Shown here piece by piece: positions 3,001 to 29,563 of a stretch of DNA of 64,000 nt. This DNA comes from Bacteroidota bacterium (GTDB lineage Bacteria > Bacteroidota > Bacteroidia > AKYH767-A > 2013-40CM-41-45): positions 198,443 through 262,442 of the forward strand of contig QQVM01000017.1 of NCBI GenBank assembly GCA_003389385.1. The letters run 5' to 3'. The position numbers were made by a program, and so were the translations under genes. Each line of letters starts with the position of its first letter. Within the stretch, counting starts at the first letter, position 1. The notes beneath the pieces were generated by a model. That model worked only from the letters and a program-made list of their open reading frames with translations. It had not been told where the DNA came from and ran no database searches.

Positions 3001-3641
3001 TTAAACCTGAACGCGATTCACTGATTTCTCTTGTTGAACAATTGATGGTAAGCAATGAAAACTTGTTGCAAGACATACTACTTATTCAGGAGTACAAACT
3101 TAATAACGTTGAAATAGAAAATGAAACAATTCCGGTTTCTGAATTGTATGAGTCCAACGAACAAATTGTGAATGAAATTTATTTAAATACATTGGCAAAG
3201 GATGAATATTATCTAAATTCAGATCAAAAACAGCAACTCGAGTCAATTATAGTTCAATGTCCCTTTGCAGGTGGCCCGGCCGTATATACAGCATTGATGT
3301 TATACCAGATGATTAACGATTCCATCATCATGGATGAAGATTTAACTTGTCCTACCTTCGGAATTGCACCACGGCATGGTCGCAAAATTTCAAATGAAGT
3401 TGTTGTTTATCCAAATCCAACAAATTCATCAATTTTCATTAAAAATTTATCCAATTTAGAGAATGCTAGTAAATTGCTTATATTTGATACTTACGGAAAA
3501 TTGTTAGGAGATATTGAATTGCCACTTGATGTAGACGTATATGAAATCCATTTAAATGATCTATCTCCGTCTATTTATTATTATAGAATCATGAATGATA
3601 ACTCTATTTTAAAATCAGATAAAATTGTTTTAATTCGATAG
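1..3641 (+). CDS. Large T9SS-secreted protein, 5' end outside window
   Basis: The frame is open from base 3, and the text before the first Met (192) continues the same Ser/Thr-rich Ig-like repeats, so the gene starts upstream of the window. Visible order: several Ig/PKD-like beta-sandwich repeats rich in Ser, Thr and Cys; a long right-handed beta-helix-like stretch (roughly residues 290-740 counted from 192) with Asn-rich turns; a helical acidic part; and a C-terminal T9SS type A sorting domain in the last 75 residues, beginning VVVYPNPTNSSIFI and ending in a basic VLIR. It is likely exported by the type IX system and surface-anchored or released. The beta-helix suggests binding or cleavage of a polysaccharide, but I see no catalytic motif. 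It lies 7 bp before the next T9SS gene and is probably co-transcribed with it. Confidence 0.85.
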   Translation, partial: TACGNSTTIGPCDINANSGLNLVSYLWSPGGATTAQITVSPTSTTTYTLTTHVNSPPATASCDVISTYIVNVSGGISVNITPSNPVLTCSNSSITLNAGSGFTSYQWSGPISGSSQTLNVNLPGVYTVIVTSPTCTSSASVTVLQNNSSPSISISSSSNDICSGQNTGVILTADCPDCNSFIWNLSGIQNQQITVYPTTSTTYTVTGIAANGCTSSASTTISVFPSGLTTPQIVGSTSNCASAPNATFQYINANWLSQYDGYYNWTLFNSSGGDISSALGYPTSTNEIVEIHWPNPNQSGILVLNFGLPGCQKSDTIYIQECCEEGITQVFYDGNTVDDMTSGNSITANDIVINGTFIINRDFAFINCRDISFAPGARLLVKSGIVLTIENSVLRPFVECCKMWKGIYVETNGKILFTGNEIHQAEHAIHVVDKCSFLIRDSEFKNNYVGMYAGDIGTTSVTGLIENTRFTSMPYNCEPGLGQYYYNFVDRYLGQKTATGNRPFAGIELKNVSYIRIGNSLNTPTGNINFDNLSNGILSDNSNVYIDNCTFDKILPVWNYSNSLLNVNGCAVRSNRSTINFTGLGGLSTSPHTIKECQYGVALLSLSTGLVRQVHTNPLTRYGIYVRFSRDVQILNNCINAMFKGIYTYNNPNIKLNIEENKISLNPFISGGSCIEFSERATPASRVVYKNQLFANKGNYGIYSNGTRASLIQENYIQTTNARINSGIHAVGSPFNVYKCNILESINTGNRNGNYGINISLSTGSEVSCNSTDENGYGIRFNGPCANTRLQGNEIYNHNTGLYLAYDANIGQQYNKGNRWLGTYTNYGAFLSNIDNFRAFLNRFSINPVCSGCITSNNGVPFGWFLSNSNDYFTCIDSSTCQLNSEFLSTITNEDILVASDSSFGQQFEQTTNYYMKRYLYDKIRENPEFMANVPILQSFYNQNILNSVGLYSQLEIEITDALKWESTYLNVYNTNVFNISSFTLRIHELDSLIEHDSSLKPERDSLISLVEQLMVSNENLLQDILLIQEYKLNNVEIENETIPVSELYESNEQIVNEIYLNTLAKDEYYLNSDQKQQLESIIVQCPFAGGPAVYTALMLYQMINDSIIMDEDLTCPTFGIAPRHGRKISNEVVVYPNPTNSSIFIKNLSNLENASKLLIFDTYGKLLGDIELPLDVDVYEIHLNDLSPSIYYYRIMNDNSILKSDKIVLIR

Positions 3642-3648
3642 AACAGAA

Positions 3649-5151
3649 ATGATTTCAATTCAATTGTTTCGCAATTTCCGTAGGATATTGATCTTCATTT
3701 TGTCATTATTCCCAACGGTGGTGAGTTGTCAGGTGCATAGTCTTATTTGGCCGCTTTGTGACTATTTAGGAAATCCACCAAATATGAAGATGAATATGAA
3801 TTTTTCTTCCGGTAATTTGGTGATAGATACTGTATACAGACCTTCAGGCTTTGTTCTAACTAATTCAGCAATCTCAGATTCAACCGGTCAATTATTGTTT
3901 TATACCAATGGATGTTTTATAGCCAATGCTTTGAATGATACTATGCCGGATGGGGATGGAATGAGTACAACTCCATGTGGTGATCAGAATTGTGGCTATG
4001 GGACAAACATTGTGCTGCAAAGTACTTTGGCTATTCCTGATCCTGGAAATTTATCTCAGTATTACATATTCCATGAGACCTGTGAACATTCGACCCAATT
4101 GCATCCGTGGAATTTATTATATAGCAAAGTCGATCTTTCACTTCAGGGCGGCTTAGGGGCAGTCACACATAAAAACACTGATATATTATCACAGGTGTTG
4201 GATGGTGGAATACTCACAGGAACCAGGCATGGAAATGGCAGAGATTGGTGGGTGATGGTGCATGGCCATAATACAGATGAATATATACGCTTTTTAGTAA
4301 CTCCTGAAGGGGTACAAGGACCGTTCAGACAAAATATAGGACCTATTATATGGAATGATGCAAGAGGTAATTCAAAATTTTCACCTGATGGAACCCTTTT
4401 TGCTACTAGTACTTTCCAGGCTGATGTGAGATTGTTTAATTTTGATCGCTGTACAGGATTGTTGAGTAATATGCGGTATTACGATACGCATGATTCTATT
4501 TTTATTGCATGTTTAGAGTTTTCGGCCAGCTCACGCTTTTTATACCTCAGTGCTCAGCCTGCTTTAATGCAATTTGATCTATTAAATTCACCATCTACAT
4601 TAGTGCCAACTATCATTGACAGGGTGGATGGTTTTCTAGCACCGGATACATGCTATTTCTTTGTTCCGCAGCTCGCACCTGATAATAAAATTTATATTTC
4701 TTCCTGGTCTGGTAGTTATGCTATGCATACTATTGGTAGTCCGGACAGTGCTGGTCAGGCCTGTCAATTTGTACAACATAGCATATTGCTGCCTTGTATT
4801 AATTCGGGTACTGTACCAAATTTAATAAACTACAAACTGGGTGCCCTTCCGGGTAGTTCTTGTGATAGTTTGACGACAGATATCACAGAAGTTATTAAAA
4901 ACAAGACTGGTTTTACTATTTCTCCCAATCCAATCAGTAATCAAATTAATATTCATAAGTTATACGAACTGGTAAATGAAAAGACTTATCATATAAGTAT
5001 TCTTAATTCTCAGGGTCAAGTTTTGTTTGAGAAAACCTTATTTCAAAATGAAAGTTCCATCCCTGCAAACTTTCTAAAGGCAGGTGTATATGTTTTACAG
5101 ATCAAGACAAGTAAAGGTGTGTTTTCGGAAAGGTTTGTGAAATTGGATTAG
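3649..5151 (+). CDS. T9SS-secreted beta-propeller-like protein
   Basis: This is a 500-residue protein with an N-terminal signal peptide (basic start, then a hydrophobic stretch ending near VVSCQ). The body contains propeller-like repeats (for example SKFSPDGTLFATSTF and QLAPDNKIYISSW), as in WD40/YVTN-type surface proteins. The C-terminus is a T9SS sorting domain starting FTISPNPISNQINI and ending with a GVYVLQI motif and FVKLD. No enzymatic residues are recognisable. It starts 7 bp after the previous stop, so the two probably form one operon of secreted cargo. The exact ligand or function is unknown. Confidence 0.8.
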   Translation: MISIQLFRNFRRILIFILSLFPTVVSCQVHSLIWPLCDYLGNPPNMKMNMNFSSGNLVIDTVYRPSGFVLTNSAISDSTGQLLFYTNGCFIANALNDTMPDGDGMSTTPCGDQNCGYGTNIVLQSTLAIPDPGNLSQYYIFHETCEHSTQLHPWNLLYSKVDLSLQGGLGAVTHKNTDILSQVLDGGILTGTRHGNGRDWWVMVHGHNTDEYIRFLVTPEGVQGPFRQNIGPIIWNDARGNSKFSPDGTLFATSTFQADVRLFNFDRCTGLLSNMRYYDTHDSIFIACLEFSASSRFLYLSAQPALMQFDLLNSPSTLVPTIIDRVDGFLAPDTCYFFVPQLAPDNKIYISSWSGSYAMHTIGSPDSAGQACQFVQHSILLPCINSGTVPNLINYKLGALPGSSCDSLTTDITEVIKNKTGFTISPNPISNQINIHKLYELVNEKTYHISILNSQGQVLFEKTLFQNESSIPANFLKAGVYVLQIKTSKGVFSERFVKLD

Positions 5152-7879: not shown

Positions 7880-8476
7880 ATGGAGTACTTGACCGCTGGA
7901 ATTGCAATTGCCTCAAAAGTAATTGATAAGTATTTTAATAATAATAATAGGAAACCAAATTCTGAAGAGGACCTGTTAGCCGTCGGTTTGGCATATGGTT
8001 ACTTTTATAATTTTCTTGAGCCGCTTTCAACAGTGCTTAGAGCAAATGGAGAATTAAAGCTTGTCGATAAAGAGAATGAACCCAACCCACATATTTTTAG
8101 TCAATCTAATTTGAGAATTCAGATTATAATTCCGAAACGATTAGATGGTAATGCCTTTGATGCATGTAATGCAGAATTTGGCAAAGCAGAATTTAAGAGA
8201 AATTATTATTCAAATGAAAACAAACGAATGTACGGACTTAATTATAATGTTTCGAACAAAGGAAGTACTATAAACATAATAGACCTTGCTCGCCCTATTA
8301 TGGCTGCAAAGCATTTCTACGAAAATATTTTAAAGTACCAAACGGGTATGTTTGATGAGAAATGGCTGAAAATTCAACAAGCAGAAAAAATTGCATTTAT
8401 AGAAACAATAAAAAAGTCACAAGAAAGAGGGTACGGTACTTTATTGAATCAAATCAGTTTTGTCGAGATTGGGTAA
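7880..8476 (+). CDS. Stand-alone STING-like domain protein
   Basis: A 198-residue protein. After a short hydrophobic/amphipathic N-terminus (about 20 residues), it shows a pattern I associate with prokaryotic STING domains: LAVGLAYGYFYNFLEPLS (dimer helix, near residues 33-50), a central strand RIQIIIPKRL, then YGLNYNVSNKGSTINIIDLARPIMA, comparable to the lid and ligand loop of STING, and a final helix-strand KSQERGYGTLLNQISFVEI. Bacterial STINGs bind cyclic dinucleotides and are usually fused to TIR or transmembrane effectors next to a cyclase. Here there is no TIR, no clear transmembrane pair and no CD-NTase nearby, so it would be an orphan or would use an unlinked partner. The assignment rests on remembered motif shape only. 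Confidence 0.45.
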   Translation: MEYLTAGIAIASKVIDKYFNNNNRKPNSEEDLLAVGLAYGYFYNFLEPLSTVLRANGELKLVDKENEPNPHIFSQSNLRIQIIIPKRLDGNAFDACNAEFGKAEFKRNYYSNENKRMYGLNYNVSNKGSTINIIDLARPIMAAKHFYENILKYQTGMFDEKWLKIQQAEKIAFIETIKKSQERGYGTLLNQISFVEIG

Positions 8477-11672: not shown

Positions 11673-11831
11673 ATGGAGAAAATGAATGATACAATCCAAC
11701 ATGTAAAGAAGTTACAAGAATGCCTTGTCACTGAGAGAACCGATAATCAGCTTGATGATGAAGATCTGAACAAGGCTATTGACTCATTGATCGATATATT
11801 TCTTGATAACTACTTTTCGAAGTACAAATGA
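11673..11831 (+). CDS. Small acidic protein coupled to serine recombinase
   Basis: A 52-residue ORF whose TGA overlaps the recombinase ATG (ATGA at 11828-11831), so translation is probably coupled. Its C-terminal part, DEDLNKAIDSLIDIFLDNY, closely matches the small ORF at 13811-13933 (DEAIDLLIDIFLDNY). This shared acidic/amphipathic helix supports a real gene. The role is unknown; a recombinase partner, a directionality factor or a regulator is possible by position alone. Confidence 0.6.
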   Translation: MEKMNDTIQHVKKLQECLVTERTDNQLDDEDLNKAIDSLIDIFLDNYFSKYK

Positions 11832-13456
11832 CAAATTCCCCTCTTAAAAAAGCAATAATTTATTGCCGAGTATCCTCTGATCGTCAAAAGTCTGAGGGTC
11901 ACGGTTTGGAAAGCCAAGAACATCGTTGTGTCCAATTTGCCAAAGAGAGAGGCTATGTGGTCGAAAAAACATTTGCTGATTCATATTCTGGTGGTGGAGA
12001 TTTTATGAGGCGTCCGGCCATGAAAGAAGTACTGTGTTTTTTAGATGATCATCCGATAGAATCTTATGTCATTATCTTCGATGACTTAAAGCGATTCGCA
12101 AGAGACACAATCTTCCACTGGAATTTGCGAAGTGCGCTACAGGCAAGAAACGCAAAACCCTTGTGTCTTAACTACAATTTCGATGAATCTCCAGAAGGTG
12201 TATTTGTTGAAACTATTTTTGCAGCACAGAATCAACTAGAGCGAGAACAAAACCGACGTCAAGTTATTCAAAAGATGAAGGCAAGGTTAGAAAAAGGCTA
12301 TTGGCCCTTCAATGCTCCAATTGGATACATTTGGAAAAAGGATTCAATACATGGCAAAATCCTGATACAAAGTAAGGAAGGACAGGTTATTAAGGAAGCT
12401 CTTGAAGGGTTTGCTTATGGACGGTTTGAAACACAACGAGCAGTTCAAGCTTTCTTAGAAGAGAAAGCCATTCGAAATGGAAAATATATTTACCTCACAT
12501 TTATAAGAGATATTCTTGAACGAATATTGTATGCTGGATACGTAGAGTTTCCAGCTTGGAACATTTCTCGTCGAAGAGGAGTGCACGAGCCACTTATCAG
12601 CTTAGAAACTTATAACAAAATTCAATCAAAGTTACATGGAAGTTCAAAACGCCCGAATACGAAAAATATCCGAGAGGATTTTCCGCTCCGGGGATTTGTC
12701 CACTGTTCTTTGTGTAGGAAGCCCTATACTGCTAACTGGAGCACTGGCAGATTGAAGAAGTATCCGTTTTATAGGTGCCATCATAAAGAATGCCAACTAT
12801 TCGGCAAGAGCATCCGACGAGATGATATTGATAAAAAATTTGAAAATATTCTTAAAACCATTATGCCTGTGTGCGGACTGACTCCGTATGCTAAAGAACG
12901 ATTTCAGACTAGATGGACAGCCAAAACGGAACAGATGAAAACTAAAATAACAATTGTTGAGAAGGAAGTCATAGCTGTTGAAAAACAGATCAATGATTTA
13001 GCGAACAGAGTCCCTCAAGTCCACAGTTCAGTTGCTACAATTTACGAAAGAAACATTCAGAAACTGGTTAACCAGAAGATTGAATTGGAAGATAAACTGA
13101 AACAATCTAATGCGATACATTCCGAGAATGTTGAAACCGCATTTGATGCATTTACACAATTCATAAAAAACCCTTATGACACCTGGGTAAAAGGAACTTT
13201 ATCAATCAGGAAACTGCTCTTAAAAATTCTTTTTGAAACGCCTTTGGTATATGATAAGTTTTTAGGTTTTGAAACCGCCAAACTACGTTACAACGTAAAG
13301 GTTTTTAAGCAATTTGTATCCCCTTATTCTGCTGATGTGGACGCCATCAGTAATTCTGAGAACAGTCCAATTCCAGAAAAGGATATTGATTGGGATCTCT
13401 TTGAAAAGGAAATTATTCAGTCGGCTCTATTAATAAAATCTGCACAATCCCCATAG
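11828..13456 (+). CDS. Large serine recombinase
   Basis: A 542-residue protein: N-terminal resolvase/invertase catalytic domain with the active Ser in YCRVSSDRQKSEGHGLESQ, the conserved Arg region FDDLKRFARD, a recombinase domain around residues 160-280, a zinc ribbon (CSLCRKP...RCHHKEC, near 294-330), a coiled coil (about 365-450) and a charged C-terminus containing DIDWDLFEKEI. It catalyses integration, excision or inversion through a phosphoserine intermediate. Its start is coupled to the small acidic ORF, and an XRE regulator follows. A decayed copy of its 3' end lies at 16921-17016. Confidence 0.92.
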   Translation: MTNSPLKKAIIYCRVSSDRQKSEGHGLESQEHRCVQFAKERGYVVEKTFADSYSGGGDFMRRPAMKEVLCFLDDHPIESYVIIFDDLKRFARDTIFHWNLRSALQARNAKPLCLNYNFDESPEGVFVETIFAAQNQLEREQNRRQVIQKMKARLEKGYWPFNAPIGYIWKKDSIHGKILIQSKEGQVIKEALEGFAYGRFETQRAVQAFLEEKAIRNGKYIYLTFIRDILERILYAGYVEFPAWNISRRRGVHEPLISLETYNKIQSKLHGSSKRPNTKNIREDFPLRGFVHCSLCRKPYTANWSTGRLKKYPFYRCHHKECQLFGKSIRRDDIDKKFENILKTIMPVCGLTPYAKERFQTRWTAKTEQMKTKITIVEKEVIAVEKQINDLANRVPQVHSSVATIYERNIQKLVNQKIELEDKLKQSNAIHSENVETAFDAFTQFIKNPYDTWVKGTLSIRKLLLKILFETPLVYDKFLGFETAKLRYNVKVFKQFVSPYSADVDAISNSENSPIPEKDIDWDLFEKEIIQSALLIKSAQSP

Positions 13457-15549: not shown

Positions 15550-16788
15550 CTAGACCTTTTTGATTTTACCGGTCAAAACTTTCCTGAGTACATGCAATTT
15601 TGATAGTAATTCATCAAACGAAACTATGTCAACATTTTTTTGATTAGCTCGATAAAGCTCAAAACATTTTGCTTGTTCTTTAGTCAATTGAGATTTGTTC
15701 CCAATAACTAAAAGCGACCGAGGATCAAAAGCGCTTTGATTTTTACCAAATTCAGTTAAGAAAATATTCTTTTGATCTAGACATTGATTAAGTCCTCCTG
15801 ATAGTTCATCTGAAAGAGAGAAAACATCAGGATCTCTATACGCCTTTTTCTTAAGAAGGACTGCTCCCGGTGTCTTTATCTCCAATAAGGCAAAATTATC
15901 TTGAAATCCATTTTGAAATAAGAAGTCAACAATTCTCCCTTCATCATTCTGAAGAGTTTTCCCTCCTACATAAGCTTTTCCTTTAAAGAGGATCACTTGA
16001 AATGGAAACAAGTGATTAAGAGTCCAGGTATGTTCTTGAAAATATTTTTGCCATTCCTCTTCATCTTTAGGGCGAGTTTTTAATAACCGTTCAAATTCAG
16101 AAATGATATCATCAAGATAACGAATATCCAGCCTCTCTTTTGTTTTAAGAATATATTCAGTAGACTTGATTGTGGTTGTATCAATACTACCCATCATATC
16201 AGCAATAATCTGCAAATCTGAATCATTCAATTTTGAAAAAGAGGAATAATTTCCAATAAAATTTTGGAACTCACCAGATGTCAATTCTCTGGGTCGGCGT
16301 CTATATTTTTTATTGATGTCGGCCAATCCATTTCTGATGATAACTTTTCTCGTTTCATCACTTGTAGTTTTGTTCTTTTCAATAGCTCTCAAGATCTTTA
16401 GCAGATCATTCCAATTGAAAGTAATAGTGGTAGTACTAAATGTAGTTTTTCCGGCTTTCGAAATGATTATTTTTGAGAATTTCTTAAATTCTCTTTGAAG
16501 AAGAGAAAAAAAGTTTTTAGCCCTGGTACTTTTAAATCCGTACGGAGATTTAGATTTGAAATCTTTTGGAAGACTAGCTTCCGTTTTCCAACCACGGAAT
16601 TCGATTTCCTTTATTCTCTTTGGTTTTAGTTCATTCGTATTTCTATTAAAACTGAAAGGATAGTGAACAATAATGCCCTTTGCCAAATGCAATTTTTTTG
16701 ATACGCCTAATGGCTTTTCGTTTGCATCATAAAAGTGGAACTTTTTTATTCCATTTTTGTCTGTAGTGAGTTTATCTTCCATTTGCAT
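15550..16788 (-). CDS. sduA: Shedu-type antiphage nuclease (DUF4263)
   Basis: A 412-residue protein whose C-terminal half matches Shedu SduA. It has an EEEWQKYFQEHTWTLNHLFP motif (near 245), then GRIVDFLFQNG and FALLEIKTPGAVLL, giving the PD-(D/E)xK active site (D, then E-x-K), and further on SLSDELSGGLNQCLDQ, typical of the family. Shedu is a single-gene defence system with nickase/endonuclease activity. The N-terminal half is variable, as expected for its sensor part. A start at the second Met (16782) is equally possible. It sits between remnants of a recombinase module. Confidence 0.8.
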   Translation of the reverse strand: MQMEDKLTTDKNGIKKFHFYDANEKPLGVSKKLHLAKGIIVHYPFSFNRNTNELKPKRIKEIEFRGWKTEASLPKDFKSKSPYGFKSTRAKNFFSLLQREFKKFSKIIISKAGKTTFSTTTITFNWNDLLKILRAIEKNKTTSDETRKVIIRNGLADINKKYRRRPRELTSGEFQNFIGNYSSFSKLNDSDLQIIADMMGSIDTTTIKSTEYILKTKERLDIRYLDDIISEFERLLKTRPKDEEEWQKYFQEHTWTLNHLFPFQVILFKGKAYVGGKTLQNDEGRIVDFLFQNGFQDNFALLEIKTPGAVLLKKKAYRDPDVFSLSDELSGGLNQCLDQKNIFLTEFGKNQSAFDPRSLLVIGNKSQLTKEQAKCFELYRANQKNVDIVSFDELLSKLHVLRKVLTGKIKKV

Positions 16789-20775: not shown

Positions 20776-22482
20776 TCATTTTACATGTGTTTCACCTTTG
20801 AGTTTTTGAATTTGAAATTCTATTTCCTCATCTTCAATTTTTCTAAACAATATCTCAGGTGTAGGTAATAGGGTACCGGAACTTAGCAAATTAAACTTAC
20901 CGCAGTAATCCCATTGAAAGTTTGTCGTCTGTGTTCCTATTAAAAAACTTAATTTATTAGCTGTACGAGGTAAAAATGGATTTATATAATAAGCAATGTT
21001 GGCAATCGCTTGAAGACAAATGTGCAAACAGTTGTCAATTATTACCCGATTATTATTTTCTTCATTAATAGACTTTGCCAAAATCCATGGAGATACATCC
21101 TGAAGAAATTTATTGCCTTTTCGACTTAGTTCAATTATATCAAAAAGAGCATTTTTAAATTTAAAAAGCTCAATATTGGATTCAACAATTTTCTTTGTAT
21201 TAACAATTTCCTCCATAATGACACGGTCTTCCGATGATAATGTATCCTCAGAGAAAACCGGAACTTTACCGTTGCAGAATTTTTGAGTTAGGATTAGAGT
21301 TCGATGAATAAAATTACCAAAAGTTGCAACTAGTTCATTATTGTTTCTATCTTGAAAGTCCTTCCAAGTAAAATCGAAATCTTTTGTTTCAGGGCTGTTA
21401 CTGCACAGAATAAACCTTAATACATCTTCAGAGTCTTTAAAATCCTGAATAAAATCATCTACCCAAACAGCCCAATTTCGTGAGGTTGATACCTTCTTTC
21501 CTTCAATGTTCAAGAATTCATTCGCAGGAATGTTGTCAGGTAATATAAAATTACCATAGGACTTTAACATTGCTGGGAAAATTATACAGTGAAATACAAT
21601 ATTATCCTTACCAACAAAATGAATTAACTTAGTATCTTTTTGCTTCCAGTATTTTTCCCAATTATCTGTAAGTTCCTTTGTTGCACTAATATATCCGATA
21701 GGTGCTTCAAACCAGACATACAATACCTTACCAATTGCATCTTCAAGCGGAACTGGAACTCCCCAATCACTATCTCTAGTTATTGATCTTGGCTGCAATC
21801 CCTGATCAAGCCAACTCTTGCATTGGTTATAAACATTAATTTTCCACTTATCTTTTTTATCTACTAAAATCCAATCCCTTAGCCAACTTTCAAATTTATT
21901 CAAAGGAAAAAACCAGTGTTTGGTTTTCTTTTTAATAGGTGTTGAATTGGTTAATGCACTTTTCGGGTTTATTAATTGCTCTGGCGATAATGTGTTTCCG
22001 CATTTTTCACATTGATCGCCATATGCATTGTCATATTGACAAAATGGACAGACCCCAATTATATATCGGTCTGCTAAATAGATACTTTTTTCAACATCAT
22101 AAAATTGTTCAGTTTCCTTTTCTTCAAATACATTTTTCTCATATAATCTTAAAAAAAAATCTTGCGAAGTTTTACGATGAATTTCACTTGTCGTGCGTGA
22201 AAAAATATCAAAAGAAATATCTATATTCTCAAAAGACTTTTTTAAAGTTGAATGAAACAAATCGACTACATTTTGCGATGTAGTATTTTCTCGAATTGCC
22301 CGAATTGTAATTGGCACTCCGTGCTCATCGCTACCGCAAATGAACTTTACATCTCTATCACGAGATCGCAAGTATCTTACATAAATATCCGCAGGTAAAT
22401 AACATCCAGCTAAATGACCTATGTGTAATGGCCCGTTAGCATACGGCAGTGCGGCAGTGATTAAATATCTTTTATATTCCAT
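20776..22482 (-). CDS. metG: Methionyl-tRNA synthetase paralogue, short form, RiPP-cluster linked
   Basis: A 568-residue class I synthetase. It has a HIGH motif at 20-23 (GPLHIGHLAG), a connective peptide with an intact zinc knuckle (Cys 145, 148, 158, 161), WFEAPIGYISATKE in the Met pocket region, KVSTS at 330-334 in the KMSKS position, and an anticodon-binding helical domain to the end. It would charge tRNA-Met. Bacteroidota housekeeping MetRS usually carries a C-terminal tRNA-binding domain and is over 650 residues long; this one stops before it. It lies 45 bp after the HExxH gene in the same direction and shares its very low GC. I infer a dedicated role: self-resistance against a product that hits MetRS, or supply of a Met-derived group. 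A plain acquired duplicate is the alternative. Confidence 0.88.
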   Translation of the reverse strand: MEYKRYLITAALPYANGPLHIGHLAGCYLPADIYVRYLRSRDRDVKFICGSDEHGVPITIRAIRENTTSQNVVDLFHSTLKKSFENIDISFDIFSRTTSEIHRKTSQDFFLRLYEKNVFEEKETEQFYDVEKSIYLADRYIIGVCPFCQYDNAYGDQCEKCGNTLSPEQLINPKSALTNSTPIKKKTKHWFFPLNKFESWLRDWILVDKKDKWKINVYNQCKSWLDQGLQPRSITRDSDWGVPVPLEDAIGKVLYVWFEAPIGYISATKELTDNWEKYWKQKDTKLIHFVGKDNIVFHCIIFPAMLKSYGNFILPDNIPANEFLNIEGKKVSTSRNWAVWVDDFIQDFKDSEDVLRFILCSNSPETKDFDFTWKDFQDRNNNELVATFGNFIHRTLILTQKFCNGKVPVFSEDTLSSEDRVIMEEIVNTKKIVESNIELFKFKNALFDIIELSRKGNKFLQDVSPWILAKSINEENNNRVIIDNCLHICLQAIANIAYYINPFLPRTANKLSFLIGTQTTNFQWDYCGKFNLLSSGTLLPTPEILFRKIEDEEIEFQIQKLKGETHVK

Positions 22483-22527
22483 AATTATTCAAATATGACA
22501 TCAACACATATTAATGTCAAGTGTATG

Positions 22528-23478
22528 TTATGTTAACTTATTAGAATTTGTGAATAACTCATGATTGTATTCGATTGATTGATTGGCGATATTGTATTTG
22601 TTTACAAAAATATTTTTTCTATAGCTATGAGTTTTTGATGTATTTAAAATAAAATTATAGATGGACTTTCCCTTTTGCGTGTAGAAATTTCCTGTAATTT
22701 CTGGAATTGTTTCCTCGAGTCGAAATGAAGACAACGCTAGCCTTCCCAATATTTCGTGTCGCAGATTTTTATCATTCATCAGTTTTGAATTATACATTCT
22801 TGTAAAGAATAAAACTATTCTAGATAATACATAACTTGCATGAATTACATGATACAGACCGCGCTTCTCCATTCTAAATGGAGAATTGAAAACTTCTTTG
22901 AATGGGTCAATTTTAAAATATTCATCTATGTCGAACAATATATAGTTTAAAGAAATATGAGAAATCTCATGAAGTAAATGTTCGCAATAAAACATGATAG
23001 ATTCATTATCTTTTCTTGGTTTTAAAAATATTAATCCAGGAGCTTCAATACATGTAAACGCAATAATGTTTTTTCCACTAATAAAAGTAATCGCGTCAAG
23101 ACATAATTTTAATTCAGTAAAACGGGAATATTTTTTAAAATAAAAAAAGGATTTTTTCAGATTCTTTAAATTTCCGACCGAAGGAGCAACGATTCTAATT
23201 TTATTATATGGTGCAGCTAACGTATCTCCTATAAGATAATCAATTAATTTGTTCGACTTTAGAATAATCGAAATATCTTTAGAATGTACCGTAAATGTTG
23301 ATTCTATTAGTCGATCAATTGAAGTTACCCTACTTCTGTAATGTAAATATGAAGTTCGAAACCATAATGGTTTGGTATTTAAATTGTTAGGCGAAATATC
23401 ATTTATGAAACATTCAATTGTCGAACAAAATTCCTTCTTACTTTTTCGAAGTTCCGTGATTGGTGGGAAAATATTCAC
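22528..23478 (-). CDS. HExxH putative peptide beta-hydroxylase
   Basis: A 316-residue protein. The motif CEHLLHEISHISLN (His170, Glu171, His174) with downstream NSPFRMEKRGLYHVIHASYV fits the HEXXH-domain family found beside RiPP precursors, now described as 2-oxoglutarate-dependent peptide hydroxylases. The start is a GTG at 23478, 25 bp after the stop of the 43-residue peptide ORF. No signal peptide is present. Neighbours are a YcaO, an E1-like enzyme and a short peptide, which supports action on a ribosomal peptide. The protein is more diverged than typical actinobacterial members, so the substrate residue cannot be predicted. Confidence 0.72.
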   Translation of the reverse strand: MNIFPPITELRKSKKEFCSTIECFINDISPNNLNTKPLWFRTSYLHYRSRVTSIDRLIESTFTVHSKDISIILKSNKLIDYLIGDTLAAPYNKIRIVAPSVGNLKNLKKSFFYFKKYSRFTELKLCLDAITFISGKNIIAFTCIEAPGLIFLKPRKDNESIMFYCEHLLHEISHISLNYILFDIDEYFKIDPFKEVFNSPFRMEKRGLYHVIHASYVLSRIVLFFTRMYNSKLMNDKNLRHEILGRLALSSFRLEETIPEITGNFYTQKGKSIYNFILNTSKTHSYRKNIFVNKYNIANQSIEYNHELFTNSNKLT

Positions 23479-23503
23479 TATTGCTAACTATTAAAGCTAA
23501 CAT

Positions 23504-23635
23504 TTATGACGAATATTCGGTCTGCATTAGTGCGCCAAATTTTTTTAACTGTTCTGGCTTTAAAATCTTAATCTTAGATGCTGAATTAGACTTTTTAGCA
23601 CCCACTTTCTTGTTGTTTTTTGCTGTCTTTTTCAT
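23504..23635 (-). CDS. Candidate RiPP precursor peptide, 43 residues
   Basis: An ORF of 43 residues, ATG at 23635, TAA at 23504-23506. The N-terminal half is Lys-rich (MKKTAKNNKKVGAKK). A leader-like helix KILKPEQLKKFGA is followed by a short tail LMQTEYSS. The layout resembles Bacteroidota RiPP leaders (xLxxEQLKxxxGG/GA), so cleavage after GA would leave an 8-residue core. The core holds Thr and two Ser for YcaO chemistry and Gln, Glu and Tyr as possible hydroxylation sites. It is the first gene of the minus-strand operon and lies 31 bp from the divergent E1 start. It is missed by length cut-offs and also lies antisense to a spurious extension of the E1 frame. Confidence 0.65.
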   Translation of the reverse strand: MKKTAKNNKKVGAKKSNSASKIKILKPEQLKKFGALMQTEYSS

Positions 23636-23666
23636 TTTATTGCATTTTATCAAATATACGAAAATA

Positions 23667-24716
23667 ATGAATCAGGAAACACTTACAGAGAAAAAGTTAA
23701 AGGACAGTGTCCAGTTATTTTTTAAAGACATGGCGCCTATCTTAATAGACTCTGTATCAAAAAAATATATCAAATTAGAGTCTTGTAAATCAAAAATAAA
23801 TTTTGAAAGAAGTATTTTGTTTCTAAAGAATCCTTCAGGAATTCCAATTACTTCAAGTGTACATCGTTTAGTAGTTCATCTTTTGAAAAGAATTCCCAAA
23901 AGTTTTTTTGTAGACTATGTAGCTCATAAGGGAAAATCTTCTCCACAAACTGCAAATTATTTTAAAATACAATCAATTGTAGGAAGTGAGAAGTTGACAC
24001 AGGATAAGTTGAAAAAGATTGAAGAAAAAAAAATTGCAATTTTAGGCGTTGGTAGTTTGGGATGTCATATTGTGCAACATTTAATCTGTCTTGGCCACAA
24101 AAATTTAACATTAATAGATTATGATATTGTCGAACAAAACAATTTAAATAGGCAGATACTTTATTCATTCAAAGATATAGGTAAAAAGAAAATTCTCGCT
24201 GCAAAAGATACTATTAATTTATACAACAAAAATATTACAGTTAACACTGTATTCCTTAAAGTAAAATCGGTAAGCCAACTTTCTAATATCATTAAAAAGT
24301 ATTCTATAGAGTTTTTGTTTTTAACTGCTGATGAGCCTGCTGGCATTATTTGCTCTATATGCGCCCAATCATGCAAGGATAACTTAATTCCGTGGACGCG
24401 AATCAATAGAATTGGACATGGACCAATTTGGGAACTGAACGAATCGTGTGCAAACTGTCATTACTTATCTTCAAAAGAAAAAGTGAAAAATTATTATAAG
24501 CCATTGAACAATGTAATAAACAAATCTCAAGGAGTATTTAATTATGATATTTCATTTAAAGTCAGTATTCTGATAAGAGACTACATCAATTATGTATTAA
24601 ATTTTCGTTTATTAAGAAATAAATATTGTTATTGCAATTTATCGTCAAATAGTATTAATTCATTGATAAGATATACCAATGTTAAAAACAATAAAAAATG
24701 TCCTTGTAAAAATTGA
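23667..24716 (+). CDS. E1/ThiF-like adenylating enzyme of a RiPP pathway
   Basis: A 349-residue protein from the ATG at 23667. The N-terminal 115 residues may include a peptide-recognition (RRE-like) part. The E1 core has GVGSLG (residues 127-132, ATP-binding), DYDIVEQNNLNRQ (151-163, Mg/adenylate binding) and zinc ligands CANC (261-264) plus CPC (345-347). Such proteins adenylate a C-terminus or act as the partner of YcaO in azoline formation. It overlaps YcaO by 38 bp, so the two are probably co-translated. The frame runs open to 23460, but that stretch is antisense to the precursor ORF and not protein-like. An MccB-type nucleotide-peptide reaction is another option. Confidence 0.8.
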   Translation: MNQETLTEKKLKDSVQLFFKDMAPILIDSVSKKYIKLESCKSKINFERSILFLKNPSGIPITSSVHRLVVHLLKRIPKSFFVDYVAHKGKSSPQTANYFKIQSIVGSEKLTQDKLKKIEEKKIAILGVGSLGCHIVQHLICLGHKNLTLIDYDIVEQNNLNRQILYSFKDIGKKKILAAKDTINLYNKNITVNTVFLKVKSVSQLSNIIKKYSIEFLFLTADEPAGIICSICAQSCKDNLIPWTRINRIGHGPIWELNESCANCHYLSSKEKVKNYYKPLNNVINKSQGVFNYDISFKVSILIRDYINYVLNFRLLRNKYCYCNLSSNSINSLIRYTNVKNNKKCPCKN

Positions 24717-25764
24717 TGGCATAAATTTGATCATTAATGTTAATTATTTTGGAAAAAATAGTCATGGCTTGTATCTATCAAAATGCGGATTTTCTAGTAA
24801 TAATAAAGTGACAATTTGTTGTGGTTTTTCAACCAATATTTATGAATCGATCGAAAAATGCATATCTGAGTTTTGCGAAAGATATTTATTATTATTTGAA
24901 AGTAACAAAGTTAAATTTCAATTAAAAAAAATACCGAGATTTTTACAACCTAATGAATATAATTTAAATGAAACATTTGAAGTTATTACAAAGTACCCAA
25001 GTCGAAGCGAATGGTTAATTCCAAAAAGATTATTTAATCCATACGCAGATGGGAATAAAATAATTGACGGAACTGGGTTCGCAGCGCACGTTGATTTTGA
25101 CTCCGCAATCATTCATGCATTATCGGAGATTTATGAAAGACACTGCGTAGGTGTTTTATGGGATAACGGAAAGTGTATAATAAAAAAGAAAATGAATATT
25201 AATAATGCTCAAATAACTAATACTTATTTTACAAATAATCTAAAATTAGAAATATATGAAATTATTCTAAATGATAAAATACCGATGAGTTGCTATATTG
25301 CGATAACTATTGATGACGAAAATAGATGTTATTTTGGTTCCGCCGCTAGTACAAGAATTAACTCTGCCATTCTTTCTGCTATTTATGAATCACTAACTAT
25401 GTATATTAATGTTAAGGATACTTGGATTGGAGATCAAAACCTACATGGACGTATTAAGGAACTTTGGGAGGTTTGTAATAACAAGAGTAATATACAATAT
25501 ACATTTCTTACCAACAAGGCGTCATCAAATGATCAGCCTAAACTGATAAAAAAAAATAAAACAGATATTACAGCTAAGGAAATTTTAGATTCATTTAATA
25601 CGACATTCAAAGGTGTGTATTATAAAGATATGGGTAAAGTATCTAATAGATATGTTGTGAAATATATAGTTCCAAAAGCCTATATTAGATATCCTTTTGG
25701 TTTTAAATCCTCGAAGATAAAATGGAATACTAAAGAGAACCCACTTACCTATCCATTTGGATAA
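24679..25764 (+). CDS. YcaO-domain enzyme
   Basis: A 361-residue YcaO protein. ATP-binding motifs: ESIEKCISEFCERYLL (SEFCER 63-68), GTGFAAHVDFDSAIIHALSE then IYERH (131-155), and FGSAASTRINSAILSAIYES (about 219-238). The C-terminus ENPLTYPFG fits the proline-rich tail common in azoline-forming YcaOs, so the gene is complete. YcaO enzymes use ATP to activate backbone amides and make azolines, thioamides or amidines. In the third motif, where E-x-x-Q is common, I see E-S-L-T. The 38-bp overlap with the E1-like gene indicates a joint cyclodehydratase-like complex acting on the nearby peptide. Confidence 0.85.
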   Translation: MLKTIKNVLVKIDGINLIINVNYFGKNSHGLYLSKCGFSSNNKVTICCGFSTNIYESIEKCISEFCERYLLLFESNKVKFQLKKIPRFLQPNEYNLNETFEVITKYPSRSEWLIPKRLFNPYADGNKIIDGTGFAAHVDFDSAIIHALSEIYERHCVGVLWDNGKCIIKKKMNINNAQITNTYFTNNLKLEIYEIILNDKIPMSCYIAITIDDENRCYFGSAASTRINSAILSAIYESLTMYINVKDTWIGDQNLHGRIKELWEVCNNKSNIQYTFLTNKASSNDQPKLIKKNKTDITAKEILDSFNTTFKGVYYKDMGKVSNRYVVKYIVPKAYIRYPFGFKSSKIKWNTKENPLTYPFG

Positions 25765-25789
25765 AAACTTTTGACTCCGGAAACCAGAG

Positions 25790-26140
25790 CCTTCAGCTGT
25801 GGGTAGGTTTTTGCGGTAAGCAAAAAAGCTCGCCGGCAATAGGATCGAAGAGAAACGGAGATCCGTCTGCGAGTGCTCATTGAGGTGTGAGGAGCTGCGG
25901 GGTGTCAAACCCCGCCCGAACTATGTAGAGTGCGAGAGAATGGCGCACAGGAAGCTACACGAGGCTGTGGGATATCGGGTAAGCCGAAGCCGAAAGGAGC
26001 CGCACCGGCGAGCCAAATAGAGAGCGACTGATCCAGCCTTGTGTGAGTCTTTCAGGATGCCTGTAAGACGTGATCAGGAGCAGACACGAACAGGTCGAGC
26101 ACCCTTTGAGGGGTGATTACCCGCGAAGACCTGGAGTGGA
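25790..26140 (+). ncRNA. GC-rich structured block, group II intron-like or unknown RNA
   Basis: This block is far more GC-rich than both neighbours and has no plausible ORF. Hairpins: GCGGGG/CCCCGC (25897-25915), GTGCG/CGCAC (25930-25948), a 9-bp stem GTCTTtCAGG/CCTGtAAGAC (26047-26069), and a nested stem CAGGTC/GACCTG (26091-26133) enclosing CACCC/GGGTG. Phrases such as GGGGTGTCAAACCCCG followed by CCCGAAC, and GGTAAGCCGAAGCCGAAAGG, recall domain I of bacterial group II introns. No reverse transcriptase and no domain V motif were found. It could be a truncated intron or a novel RNA. Confidence 0.45.
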
Positions 26141-26231
26141 TACCTTGTTTCCGGGTACAATTATATTTTTATCTATCTTGTTTTTTAACTATTTTGTCAG
26201 GTCAACATTGTTCATATTAACATCAAAAAAC

Positions 26232-27581
26232 ATGGAATTAACTTCAGTCAATAATATCACCGAGTTAAAGAATCAAATCAGAGATAAAATTGGTGGTATT
26301 AATAAATCTGCATTCACCACTGATAAATTCGGTAGCGAGCAAGAATACACTTACAAGGGATTAATAGGCGGTGCGGATGCTCTGTTATCAGATATTGGAG
26401 CACTGGTAAAAACGCCTGAGAAATTTATACGCTTGTCATCCTATGAAGACCGTCAATCATTAATTCAACAGTTAGTGAATGTTAAGAATTCTATTGATGA
26501 CCCTTCAGCATTGGTCGGATACATTGAAACACTCAAGAGTTACCTCAGACCTTTTAATGTTAGATATACTAAAGACCGTTACATTGAATTCGACAAACAG
26601 ACAGATATCATTTTCAAAAAAAAGGTGGAAATAGAAGAGGCGGCTGAAGGAATTACCACATTGAAAAAGGAGATGGAAGATAAGAAACTAATAGTTGATG
26701 CTTTGGTAGTTGATTTAGAGGCAAAAGTTAAAAATGTTGAAGAAAAGAATACAAACTTGCAATCACTCATTGAAAAACAAAATGCAAGCATAGAGGAAAA
26801 TCAGACAAAACTTGATGATCTCGATGAATTGAAAATTGGAATAAACGAAATCAACAAAAGTGCTAATCTTTCCTTTACCGAAATAAAATCCAATGAAAAG
26901 CTTGTTGACTCGTTTGTCAAACGAGTGCAAACAAGAGAAACACAAATCGATAAAATTGAAAATCAAACTACAGATTATCTTACTAAACTAAAAGAGTTTC
27001 AAAATGAAAGGATTGCGCTTCTAGATGAAGCACAAAAATTAATTGATTCGGCCAAACTCGCTTTAAATTATAAAACTGCTGAAGGACTTAGTGCGTCTTT
27101 TAAATCCCAATATGATGAACAATTAAAAGCAAAGCCTTGGATATGGATCGTAATAGCTGGCCTCTGTCTTGCGACCACTATAGGATTAGGTATTTGGATT
27201 TTATTGGAGCGTACCGATGTTGGCGTGATTATTGGAAGAATTACGCTTTTGCCTTTACCAATAGCCGGTGCATTATTCTGCGCTAACCAATATGTTAAGC
27301 GTCATAATATCATTCAAGATTATGCATATAAGCTAGCTTTGGCAAAATCAATTGTCGGTTTTTCTGAGCAATTAAAAAACAGTACTGAAAAAAGCTCTGA
27401 AGAGTATGTAACTTACATTAAGAGAGTGCTTGAAGAAATTCATCAAGATCCACTTCGAAAAAGAACTAAAAATGAAAGCAGAATAAGTTCACTTGAAGAA
27501 AAAGAGAAAGAACATGCATTATCATTAAAATCGCTTTCGGAAACTGTTGGCAATCTCTTTAAGAGAAAATTCGAGGAATAA
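26232..27581 (+). CDS. Coiled-coil protein with two C-terminal-half membrane helices
   Basis: 449 residues from the ATG at 26232; the frame is open back to 26070, but that part lies inside the structured RNA block. Residues about 110-280 form a long Lys/Glu-rich coiled coil, followed by two hydrophobic segments (PWIWIVIAGLCLATTIGLGI then IITLL-like and LPLPIAGALFCANQYV) and a second helical region. No family is certain. It lies 21 bp before the serine integrase and may be an element-encoded membrane or envelope factor. Confidence 0.6.
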   Translation: MELTSVNNITELKNQIRDKIGGINKSAFTTDKFGSEQEYTYKGLIGGADALLSDIGALVKTPEKFIRLSSYEDRQSLIQQLVNVKNSIDDPSALVGYIETLKSYLRPFNVRYTKDRYIEFDKQTDIIFKKKVEIEEAAEGITTLKKEMEDKKLIVDALVVDLEAKVKNVEEKNTNLQSLIEKQNASIEENQTKLDDLDELKIGINEINKSANLSFTEIKSNEKLVDSFVKRVQTRETQIDKIENQTTDYLTKLKEFQNERIALLDEAQKLIDSAKLALNYKTAEGLSASFKSQYDEQLKAKPWIWIVIAGLCLATTIGLGIWILLERTDVGVIIGRITLLPLPIAGALFCANQYVKRHNIIQDYAYKLALAKSIVGFSEQLKNSTEKSSEEYVTYIKRVLEEIHQDPLRKRTKNESRISSLEEKEKEHALSLKSLSETVGNLFKRKFEE

Positions 27582-27602: not shown

Positions 27603-29048
27603 ATGAAAGATAAAAAAGTCGGCATTTGGATTCGAGTTTCTACTGAGTTTCAGGTAAAGGATGACAGTCCCGAACATCACGAAAAGCGGGCTCGCTCCTA
27701 TGCAGAAGCTAAAGGTTGGAATATTGTTGAACTATACAAACTTGATGCTGTAAGCGGAAAATCTGTTATGGATCATCCAGAGGCCAAACGAATGCTTAAA
27801 GATGTTCGCGCAGGAAGAATTACAGGCCTCATTTTTTCAAAGTTGGCACGACTTGCAAGAAACACGAAGGAACTACTTGAGTTCTCTGAAATTTTCCGTG
27901 CATATGATGCAGACCTTATTTCTCTTTCTGAGAGTATTGACACCAGTTCTTCTGCCGGGAGATTATTTTACACAATGATCGCAGCACTTTCAGAATGGGA
28001 GCGGTCTGAAATCGCAGAGCGGGTTGCCGCATCTGTTCCTATTCGTGCCAAACTCGGAAAATCTCTTGGTGGTGCAGCGCCGTTTGGATATAGATGGGAA
28101 GGAAAGAACCTGTTCATAGAAGAGAAAGAAGCACAGGTGAGAAAAATAATTTATGAACTTTTTATTGAACACAAACGTAAAGCTACAGTCGCAGATATAC
28201 TCAACAGGAAGGGGTACCGAACTCGAAATGGTTCAGAATTTTCTGACACAACCATTGGCCGACTCCTTCGTGATCCAGTAGCTAAAGGACTCCGAAGAGC
28301 AAACTATACAAAAAGTCTTGGGGAGAACAAAAAGTGGGAAATGAAACCCAAAGAGGATTGGGTGATGATCACCTGCCCTGCTATTATTGATGAAGCTACT
28401 TGGGATTCATGCAATGCAATCTTAGACAGTCAAGAAGTCAAGCGGAATCAACCAACAAGAAAATCAGCACATCTTTTTTCTGGAATTCTACTTTGTTCTT
28501 GTGGTGGCAAAATGTATGTCCCTACTCGGGTGACAAAATACATGTGTTCAAGATGTAAAAAAACAAATATTATGATTGATGACATTGAATCAATCTATTA
28601 CGAAAACCTCAAATCTTTTATTCTCGGCAAAGACGATATAGCGATATTAAATGCAAGATCAAAGAATGAAATTGATTCAAAAAACCAAGAGTTAGTTGTC
28701 CTTGGTATTGAAAAAAATAATATTCGTCAAGAAATGGATAAACTAGTACTACTCCATAACAAGGATCAACTTCCTACGGAAAGGTTTGGTGAATACTATA
28801 CTCCACTGAACCTTCGACTTAAGCAATGCGAGGACAGCATATTAGATATTGAAAGTCAGCTTGACTATATCAAGCATCAGCAATTAAATGGAGAATACAT
28901 CCTAGAAAATGCTGATTCTTTATACAAAAGCTGGCCAAAACTTTCCATTGAATCCCGTCGAAAAGTGGTCGAAGAGCTGACGGAGTCTATAATTATATCT
29001 AATGATGAAATTTATATAAAGTTTCATTTTACGCCAAATTCCTATTAA
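27603..29048 (+). CDS. Large serine integrase at the comM junction
   Basis: A 481-residue serine recombinase: catalytic domain with WIRVSTEFQVKDDSPEHHEK (active Ser), SKLARLARNTKELLEF, and GRLFYTMIAALSEWERSEIA on the long helix; recombinase domain about 165-260; zinc ribbon LCSCGGKMYVPTRVTKYMC then SRC; coiled coil; C-terminal helix. Its stop is 25 bp before the comM fragment, the expected place for an integrase that targets comM and sits beside its own attachment site. It is probably the enzyme that inserted this element. Confidence 0.92.
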   Translation: MKDKKVGIWIRVSTEFQVKDDSPEHHEKRARSYAEAKGWNIVELYKLDAVSGKSVMDHPEAKRMLKDVRAGRITGLIFSKLARLARNTKELLEFSEIFRAYDADLISLSESIDTSSSAGRLFYTMIAALSEWERSEIAERVAASVPIRAKLGKSLGGAAPFGYRWEGKNLFIEEKEAQVRKIIYELFIEHKRKATVADILNRKGYRTRNGSEFSDTTIGRLLRDPVAKGLRRANYTKSLGENKKWEMKPKEDWVMITCPAIIDEATWDSCNAILDSQEVKRNQPTRKSAHLFSGILLCSCGGKMYVPTRVTKYMCSRCKKTNIMIDDIESIYYENLKSFILGKDDIAILNARSKNEIDSKNQELVVLGIEKNNIRQEMDKLVLLHNKDQLPTERFGEYYTPLNLRLKQCEDSILDIESQLDYIKHQQLNGEYILENADSLYKSWPKLSIESRRKVVEELTESIIISNDEIYIKFHFTPNSY

Positions 29049-29082
29049 ATAAATATGCAAACAACCCCACACATCCATGTCC
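29049..29082. other. Probable right attachment junction (attR) in comM
   Basis: Between the integrase stop and recognisable ComM coding, the element sequence AACAACCCCACACAT passes into CCATGTCCATGCGG, the codons for the conserved N-P-C-P-C-G of ComM. The Asn codon of that motif is altered (CAT in place of AAT/AAC), so the crossover lies at about 29072-29080. The matching left site is not in the window. Confidence 0.65.
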
Positions 29083-29563
29083 ATGCGGTTATTACAATCA
29101 CCCTGATAAGAATTGCGTATGCGCACCGGGAGTTGTTCAGAAATATCTCAACAAAGTTTCCGGTCCTTTGCTTGACAGGATTGACATTCATGTAGAAGTC
29201 ACTCCTGTCGCTTTCCGTGAACTCAGCACAGCTTCCACTGGTGAAAAAAGTGAGTCGATTCGTAAAAGGGTGGTAGAGGCAAGAAATATTCAGGCAGGCA
29301 GGTTCGGCGATGACGCAGGAGTTTACTGCAATGCGCAAATGAGTTCGAAAATATTACGCGAAATATGCCACATTCCTGAGGAAGGAAAAACATTATTGAA
29401 AACTGCTATGGAAAGACTGGGTCTCAGCGCACGCGCGTATGACCGGATTTTAAAAGTTGCAAGAACTATTGCCGATTTAGCCGGTTCCGATAAGATTCTG
29501 ACAGAACATCTGGCAGAAGCGATTCAGTACCGCAGCCTTGACAGGGAAGGATGGGCGGGATGA
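29073..29563 (+). pseudogene. comM: 3' fragment of comM (Mg-chelatase-like ATPase), cut by the element
   Basis: The last ~163 codons of comM/yifB. The reading starts PCPCGYYNHPDKNCVCAPG, then VQKYLNKVSGPLLDRIDIHV, and ends LSARAYDRILKVARTIADLA...AIQYRSLDREGW, all typical of the C-terminal half. The ATPase core with Walker A is missing, and the normal start lies in the absent 5' half. ComM is a branch-migration helicase active in natural transformation, so insertion here should lower that function. Internal ATGs could start a short product, but there is no reason to think it is functional. Confidence 0.88.

Follow-up and report, generated by a model that had tools for sequence, protein, structure and literature searches.

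Within a 64,000-nucleotide stretch of contig QQVM01000017.1 of a Bacteroidota bacterium (the window; positions are counted from its first letter), five open reading frames (ORFs) at positions 20776-25764 very probably form a pathway for a ribosomally synthesized and post-translationally modified peptide (RiPP). They encode a candidate precursor peptide, a ThiF/E1-like adenylyltransferase (E1), a YcaO protein, a HExxH protein and an accessory methionyl-tRNA synthetase (MetRS). The reading as a whole, in which this compact pathway lies on a genomic island, its product would inhibit MetRS and the foreign MetRS would provide self-resistance, is given about an even chance. A preliminary description of this DNA, made from the sequence alone, had likewise proposed a peptide pathway with a product concerning MetRS, and this remains the best reading.

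What the sequence analysis shows are the genes, their families and catalytic motifs, the foreign origin of the accessory MetRS and the presence of the host's own MetRS elsewhere. The reading is supported by the tight packing of the five genes, their low GC content and the overlap of the E1 and YcaO genes. Further support comes from the YcaO and HExxH proteins, which belong to RiPP tailoring families, and from relatives of E1 found in mcc-like plasmid operons.

The accessory methionyl-tRNA synthetase

The accessory MetRS matched PF09334 at 1.7e-153 and NF001100 with 661.5 bits (cut-off 587). For alignment and tree construction, 30 reference MetRS were used, namely that of the host plus the 29 top-scoring loci from matched genomes. 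Aligned with these 30, the accessory copy had the HIGH motif and the KxSTS motif (as KVSTS), and the C-terminal (Trbp111-like) domain was absent; other short MetRS exist, a few of the matches being below 620 aa.

The host's other MetRS, a 692-aa frame on a different contig, was 60% identical to the accessory copy. In the tree of 31 MetRS, the accessory copy sat on a long branch and clustered with three family f7 sequences (support 0.98), the host enzyme being placed elsewhere. Because of this grouping and the retained motifs, the accessory MetRS is probably an imported working enzyme, not a decaying duplicate.

A second, divergent aminoacyl-tRNA synthetase (aaRS) copy with intact catalytic motifs was found beside biosynthetic genes. 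By analogy with known cases, the balance tips slightly towards a role of this enzyme in self-resistance to the product. Duplication of the target aaRS for self-resistance is known for SerRS in albomycin and ThrRS in obafluorin producers. To our knowledge, the products in these two cases and agrocin 84 are not RiPPs. For agrocin 84, self-immunity through an extra LeuRS copy is described as established, and there too the producer carries a second, divergent aaRS (PMC5059758).

The modifying enzymes

The E1 frame was listed from a TTG codon at 23460, and its start was assigned to the ATG at 23667. It matched ThiF (PF00899) at 5.4e-28. Among PDB sequences, the best match was PaaA of the pantocin A pathway (8.6e-15), followed by eukaryotic E1s from 2.2e-14 and by MccB of microcin C7 (1.6e-13), which gave the longest aligned stretch among these matches. 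Of the RiPP enzymes with solved structures, PaaA and MccB are thus closest to it in sequence.

Plasmid matches of E1 included ThiF-family proteins, 361-368 aa long, whose genes precede that of a major facilitator superfamily (MFS) transporter, an mccB-mccC-like order. When E1 was aligned by hhalign with a profile of eight of the eleven plasmid E1s, residues 97-347 were covered at 28% identity and a probability of 99.8, including both cysteine pairs (CxxC and a C-terminal CxC). Out of 20 columns invariant in the eight plasmid proteins, 17 were kept; the three deviations were S for G in GVGSLG, I for W, and a gap for P. From these residues, E1 is likely an active adenylating enzyme, and it looks like more than a docking partner. 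The branching of an E1 tree was taken as weak evidence, since it held 14 sequences, of which only two were judged non-RiPP.

The YcaO protein matched PF02624 at 3.7e-15 and reached 46.1 bits against TIGR03604, under the curated cut-off of 219.25. This shortfall is weak evidence, because the YcaO protein of another genome (G207) falls short as well (174.4 bits). In an alignment with one TOMM-type YcaO protein (the type of thiazole/oxazole-modified microcins), the ATP-binding ExxER motifs were kept (E64xxE67R, E150xxE153R and E237), and by sequence the protein is a divergent SagD-type protein. No match among solved structures was obtained at E up to 0.1. YcaO genes were rare in this class, occurring in 2 of 198 genomes at E<=1e-5, the own genome counted.

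The C-terminus of the YcaO protein reads NPLTYPFG, with no PxP within the last 30 residues; for comparison, the G207 protein ends in PHPFP. A C-terminal PxP has been linked to azoline formation (PMC7136475). Azoline or related YcaO/E1 chemistry had been proposed in the preliminary description: the peptide pathway is retained, and azoline chemistry is weakened because the adenylation site retained in E1 is like that of MccB and PaaA, and because the YcaO protein lacks PxP. Azoline formation as the sole activity was accordingly demoted to a rival explanation. Other outcomes are described for this family, such as the C-terminal amidine formed by ItfB, a YcaO protein of Bacteroidales; in the available text of a survey of Bacteroidales RiPP clusters, neither tRNA nor HExxH is mentioned (PMC10352776).

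The HExxH protein, previously suggested to be a hydroxylase, carries the motif HEISH and matched TIGR04267 at 4e-7, with a score (30.2 bits) under the curated cut-off of 40. H170, H174, R206 and H213 were invariant between this protein and three distant relatives, two of which exceed the cut-off. By sequence it appears to be a distant relative of the alpha-ketoglutarate-dependent HExxH (aKG-HExxH) enzymes and a probable peptide hydroxylase or oxidative cleaver. Members of this family are reported to hydroxylate peptide residues (PMC13060819) or to cleave the backbone oxidatively, leaving an amide behind (PMC12636437). Searched against solved structures, it gave no match at E up to 1.

The candidate precursor peptide

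The peptide is encoded by a TTG-start frame at 23504-23653 on the minus strand, in which an ATG at 23635 gives 43 aa. When the 188-bp gap was put through dinucleotide shuffling, 22 of 2000 sequences contained a minus-strand ATG ORF reaching 43 aa or more, and 61 of 2000 contained one on either strand. Scored against the codons used by the remaining genes of the cluster, the peptide frame ranked first of all six (0.218 per codon); one antisense frame is also stop-free over the peptide and scored 0.098. The ORF is thus more than expected by chance, short of proof. Its N-terminal half is rich in Lys and Asn, the C-terminus reads FGALMQTEYSS, and Cys is absent. The N-terminal half may serve as a leader and FGALMQTEYSS as the core.

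Organization of the cluster and its genomic context

Coordinates of the features are collected in Table 1. The ORF listing reproduced the layout previously given, namely five ORFs with their strands, spacings and the 38-bp overlap of E1 and YcaO. On the minus strand, the peptide gene is followed after 25 bp by the HExxH gene and this after 45 bp by the MetRS gene; the E1 and YcaO genes are on the plus strand and share positions 24679-24716, and the ATG codons of peptide and E1 are arranged divergently, 31 bp apart. The AT-rich character noted earlier was confirmed by a GC content of 28-33% across the five genes, compared with 35-44% in three other genes of the island; the single host gene outside the island, at 44%, was also above the cluster.

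Table 1. Features of the five-gene cluster and of the adjoining right end of the island (window positions).
Feature	Position	Strand	Basis
Accessory methionyl-tRNA synthetase (MetRS), 568 aa	20776..22482	-	PF09334, NF001100, alignment, tree
Gap upstream of MetRS, 45 bp	22483..22527	-	promoter-like match and inverted repeat
HExxH protein, 316 aa, GTG start, motif HEISH	22528..23478	-	TIGR04267
Candidate precursor peptide, 43 aa	23504..23635	-	shuffle test, codon score
Divergent spacer, 31 bp, TAnnTTTG match	23636..23666		motif scan
ThiF/E1-like adenylyltransferase, MccB/PaaA kind, 349 aa	23667..24716	+	PDB matches, hhalign, PF00899
YcaO protein, 361 aa	24679..25764	+	PF02624, TIGR03604
Large serine recombinase, presumed integrase, right end of island	27603..29048	+	Resolvase and Recombinase domains
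comM 3' part	29049..29563	+	PF13335 7.9e-37

On the minus strand of the divergent spacer, upstream of the peptide, a match to TAnnTTTG (TATATTTG) was located at 23651-23658; this motif was not enriched in the window (68 seen, 68.9 expected).

The element was earlier described as mobile, which is supported by the split comM gene. The 5' part of comM, located some 42 kb left of the 3' part (G000:C1:184925-185425), ends in SSMNP, and the reading continues as PCPCGYY at the beginning of the 3' part. PF01078 was matched in two pieces. The island spans about 42 kb, from G000:C1:185425 to window position ~29050, at the MNP|CPCG codons, and was apparently inserted into comM by a large serine integrase. 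In view of the split comM, the serine recombinase at the island's end and the varied island genes, the five-gene cluster gives the impression of being carried as cargo on an integrative element.

Further island genes encode CoiA, RadC, TrwB-like coupling proteins, ArdC and a two-component pair. Also on the island are a prokaryotic STING-domain protein (7880-8476, PF20300 3.3e-15), a protein with a Shedu SduA C-terminal domain (15550-16788, PF14082 3.2e-18) and a second large serine recombinase (11828-13456), perhaps from an older or nested insertion. Two proteins with sorting tails of the type IX secretion system, one of them with a beta-helix, are apparently located on it as well (192-5151). 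Sorting domains of this type, together with the nearest named MetRS, point to a host within the Bacteroidota.

The left part of the island encodes a protein with trypsin-like peptidase and DNA/RNA non-specific endonuclease domains (L016:10663-12600). Neither an exporter nor a protease had been seen nearby in the initial reading; the cluster indeed contains no exporter, and none was present among eight ORFs scanned towards the island's left end, of which the trypsin-like/endonuclease protein is one.

Directly 3' of the YcaO gene, a GC-rich structured stretch of 406 nt was observed (25765-26170), with a fold z-score of -2.86 and one of 100 shuffles equally stable. It is possibly an intron or a remnant of a non-coding RNA. 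No Rfam family exceeded its threshold in positions 1-40000, and two sub-threshold matches fell within 25700-26300.

Search for related clusters

The occurrence of the same five genes in other Bacteroidota genomes had been proposed as a check; the search was made and no such cluster was found. The genome sets overlapped in part, scans of contigs rested on short exact patterns, and the scope was genomes, plasmids and viral contigs.

For YcaO, 42 genomes of the order, 395 of the phylum and 394 of family f7 yielded the own genome and one weak match (6.5e-4), which was rejected, as no YcaO-like ORF was present around it. Genome contigs scanned with the short YcaO patterns gave none with A2 and four with A1. 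Two of these four loci (L064 and L067) were judged by eye to have other contexts, and for the other two (L065 and L066) the annotation of a Pantoea eucrina plasmid served as the guide; all four were set aside. Among 72,556 plasmid records, no match was obtained for YcaO at 1e-5 (five weak ones at E up to 5) or for HExxH at 0.01. In four scans of viral contigs, no match was found for YcaO, HExxH, MetRS or E1, and E1 matches in phages amounted to four partial records.

Distant E1 relatives (~27-41% identity, partial) had no YcaO or MetRS recognised nearby in the incomplete gene table of PLSDB, in which peptide genes were not sought. The E1s nearest in the small tree, L060 and L062, were rejected as kin from YcaO clusters, with no YcaO among the neighbours tested.

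The HExxH search (2 genomes of the genus, 395 of the class and 395 of the phylum) returned the own genome and the three distant relatives, at 22-27% identity. As judged by eye from ORF lists, their neighbours were arginase-like (G617), methyltransferase/PqqD-like with an ABC transporter (G729) and radical SAM (G736); no YcaO, E1 or MetRS was seen in these surroundings, the G617 contig being only 3.4 kb long and peptide genes not sought.

Two loci of other genomes were recorded during this inspection by eye. In L013:1438-3413, cut by the contig end, a HExxH gene lies by an arginase-like gene, possibly a RiPP cluster. In L012:3529-11850, a HExxH gene is followed by methyltransferase/PqqD-like, hydrolase, aldo-keto-reductase-like and peptidase-ABC transporter genes, an arrangement suggestive of another peptide cluster, so far uncharacterised.

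Two MetRS matches each were listed for ten other genomes; G491 alone was inspected, and further accessory copies may exist elsewhere. A second accessory MetRS in G491 was rejected: both copies adjoin a similar LD-carboxypeptidase-like gene, by eye an apparent mixed assembly. Three plasmid records with MetRS matches at 55-58% were also set aside, two being a 679-aa metG in ordinary surroundings and the third unannotated. Among the matches listed in a search of open-licence literature by title and start of abstract, there was no such cluster, no natural MetRS inhibitor and no MetRS case of self-resistance by aaRS target duplication.

Proposed pathway and comparison with known systems

The chemical steps, the target and the resistance are inferred as follows. 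The 43-residue peptide would be synthesized and bound by E1, which would adenylate the carboxylate of either Glu40 or Ser43 at the C-terminus in the manner of MccB, PaaA, GrcB and IndF, so that a neighbouring nucleophile or a nucleotide is joined to the peptide. The YcaO protein would then introduce a second ATP-dependent backbone change, and the HExxH enzyme would hydroxylate a residue or oxidatively cut the backbone near Met37-Gln38. After trimming by host peptidases, a small mimic of methionine or methionyl-AMP may result. The accessory MetRS, as a less sensitive enzyme, would maintain the supply of Met-tRNA. In a more specific form, decidedly unlikely as it stands, the product would be a Trojan-horse peptide with a methionine-derived warhead: the HExxH enzyme would cut beside Met37, E1 and YcaO would build the methionyl-adenylate mimic, and the foreign MetRS would be the immunity.

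The microcin C and pantocin pathways resemble this cluster in that a short precursor is combined with a RiPP E1 that has adenylation residues (PMC12250964), and the target of microcin C is itself an aaRS, AspRS (PMC9239234). Unlike them, the cluster adds YcaO and HExxH enzymes, and the N-terminal clamp of E1 was unrecognised in profile tests. The precursor of microcin C ends in Asn and an MFS exporter lies beside its E1, whereas the peptide here ends in SS and the cluster has no MFS or other exporter. Immunity would reside in MetRS and not in the degrading or acetylating proteins of the microcin C/pantocin type.

For the E1-YcaO pair, the nearest precedent found, likened by enzyme type, is D1-X2 of lactazolicin, in which a PxP-less YcaO protein is paired with a ThiF/MccB/PaaA-like protein (PMC7136475). 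In contrast, that pair supplements standard azole machinery acting on a Cys-rich precursor (PMC7136475), while the present pair has only HExxH and MetRS for company and the peptide is Cys-free. HExxH proteins of the TIGR04267 kind occur in the peptide clusters of PflC/PosC and PesO, where they are paired with MNIO, nitroreductase or AS-like enzymes (PMC12636437, PMC13060819); the available text of PMC13060819 does not mention ThiF or YcaO.

Alternative explanations

Several observations weigh against a pathway directed at MetRS. At the 1-3% level, the peptide ORF could have arisen by chance. The accessory MetRS deviates at 17 near-invariant columns, none tied to resistance, and the HExxH protein scores under its family cut-off. 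The N-terminal ~95 residues of E1, as long as in its relatives, gave no match to leader-binding (RiPP recognition element) profiles, and AlphaFold models of E1 and the HExxH protein had a mean pLDDT of 33 and were left unused. No exporter was detected in the cluster by the ORF list and family profiles, and no C39 peptidase in the own host genome (0/1). With no sister cluster in any search, the link to MetRS is a single case, and selection for the pairing of peptide and MetRS therefore cannot be shown. MetRS may also have its own promoter: its upstream gap contains a sigma-70-like match (22520-22492, 10 of 12 positions) and, by eye, a 6-bp inverted repeat (TGACAT-12 nt-ATGTCA). The promoter match is weak, because 29 such matches occurred in the region and 30.2 were expected; together with the patchwork of cargo on the island, it leaves MetRS as maybe an unrelated neighbour.

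MetRS would likewise be an unrelated passenger beside an ordinary azoline pathway, in which E1 would only dock the peptide, YcaO would cyclodehydrate Thr39, Ser42 and Ser43, and the HExxH enzyme would hydroxylate. This is unlikely, yet it has tangible points: E1-YcaO pairs are described as typical of azoline clusters, with ThiF/E1 partners as docking proteins (PMC7136475, PMC12150305), the YcaO protein is of the SagD kind with ExxER motifs shared by a TOMM-type protein, and the island cargo is diverse. What counts against it is the missing PxP, the retained adenylation residues of an E1 with PaaA and MccB as nearest RiPP structures, the lack of a dehydrogenase in the cluster, and the HExxH and MetRS genes lying only 45 bp apart on the same strand. 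Quite unlikely is also a MetRS carried as free-standing cargo, giving resistance or backup against another MetRS inhibitor or attack and placed beside the RiPP cluster by accident. A review warns that inhibitor-insensitive MetRS2 may reach bacteria by gene transfer (PMC7916415), and the weak promoter and the defence-type genes on the island fit this explanation; however, MetRS belongs to the same compact low-GC block and runs in the direction of the peptide and HExxH genes. A PADLOC scan of three cluster proteins other than MetRS, moreover, matched only E1, to generic E1-E2 models (best 6.7e-16).

These E1-E2 matches, with the STING and Shedu genes of the island, would favour a non-RiPP module of ubiquitin-like conjugation or defence, in which E1 and an HExxH protease act on a host or phage protein. 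It is the least probable of the explanations weighed, as no E2 or ubiquitin-like protein is among the five genes, the YcaO and aKG-HExxH families are RiPP enzymes, and PaaA ranks first among the structures, with eukaryotic E1s close behind. RiPP pathways include tRNA-dependent peptide extension, and MetRS, with its catalytic motifs present, might instead be biosynthetic, its methionyl-AMP or Met-tRNA being used in building or extending the product. This is very improbable, since no other cluster gene matches a family of aminoacyl-tRNA-using ligases and Met-tRNA is already available from the host MetRS.

Implications

If a RiPP pathway directed at MetRS is confirmed, an active ThiF-type adenylyltransferase would be shown working with a YcaO protein, a combination excluded from the outset in one genome-mining study, according to its available text (PMC12150305). 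In the available text of a review, the MetRS inhibitors discussed, REP8839 and CRS3123 among them, are products of drug development (PMC7916415). A peptide mimicking methionyl-adenylate would, if real, be the first natural inhibitor of MetRS. MetRS is a drug target, and a cluster that names it through a self-resistance copy would offer a genetically encoded, easily varied inhibitor together with a ready assay.

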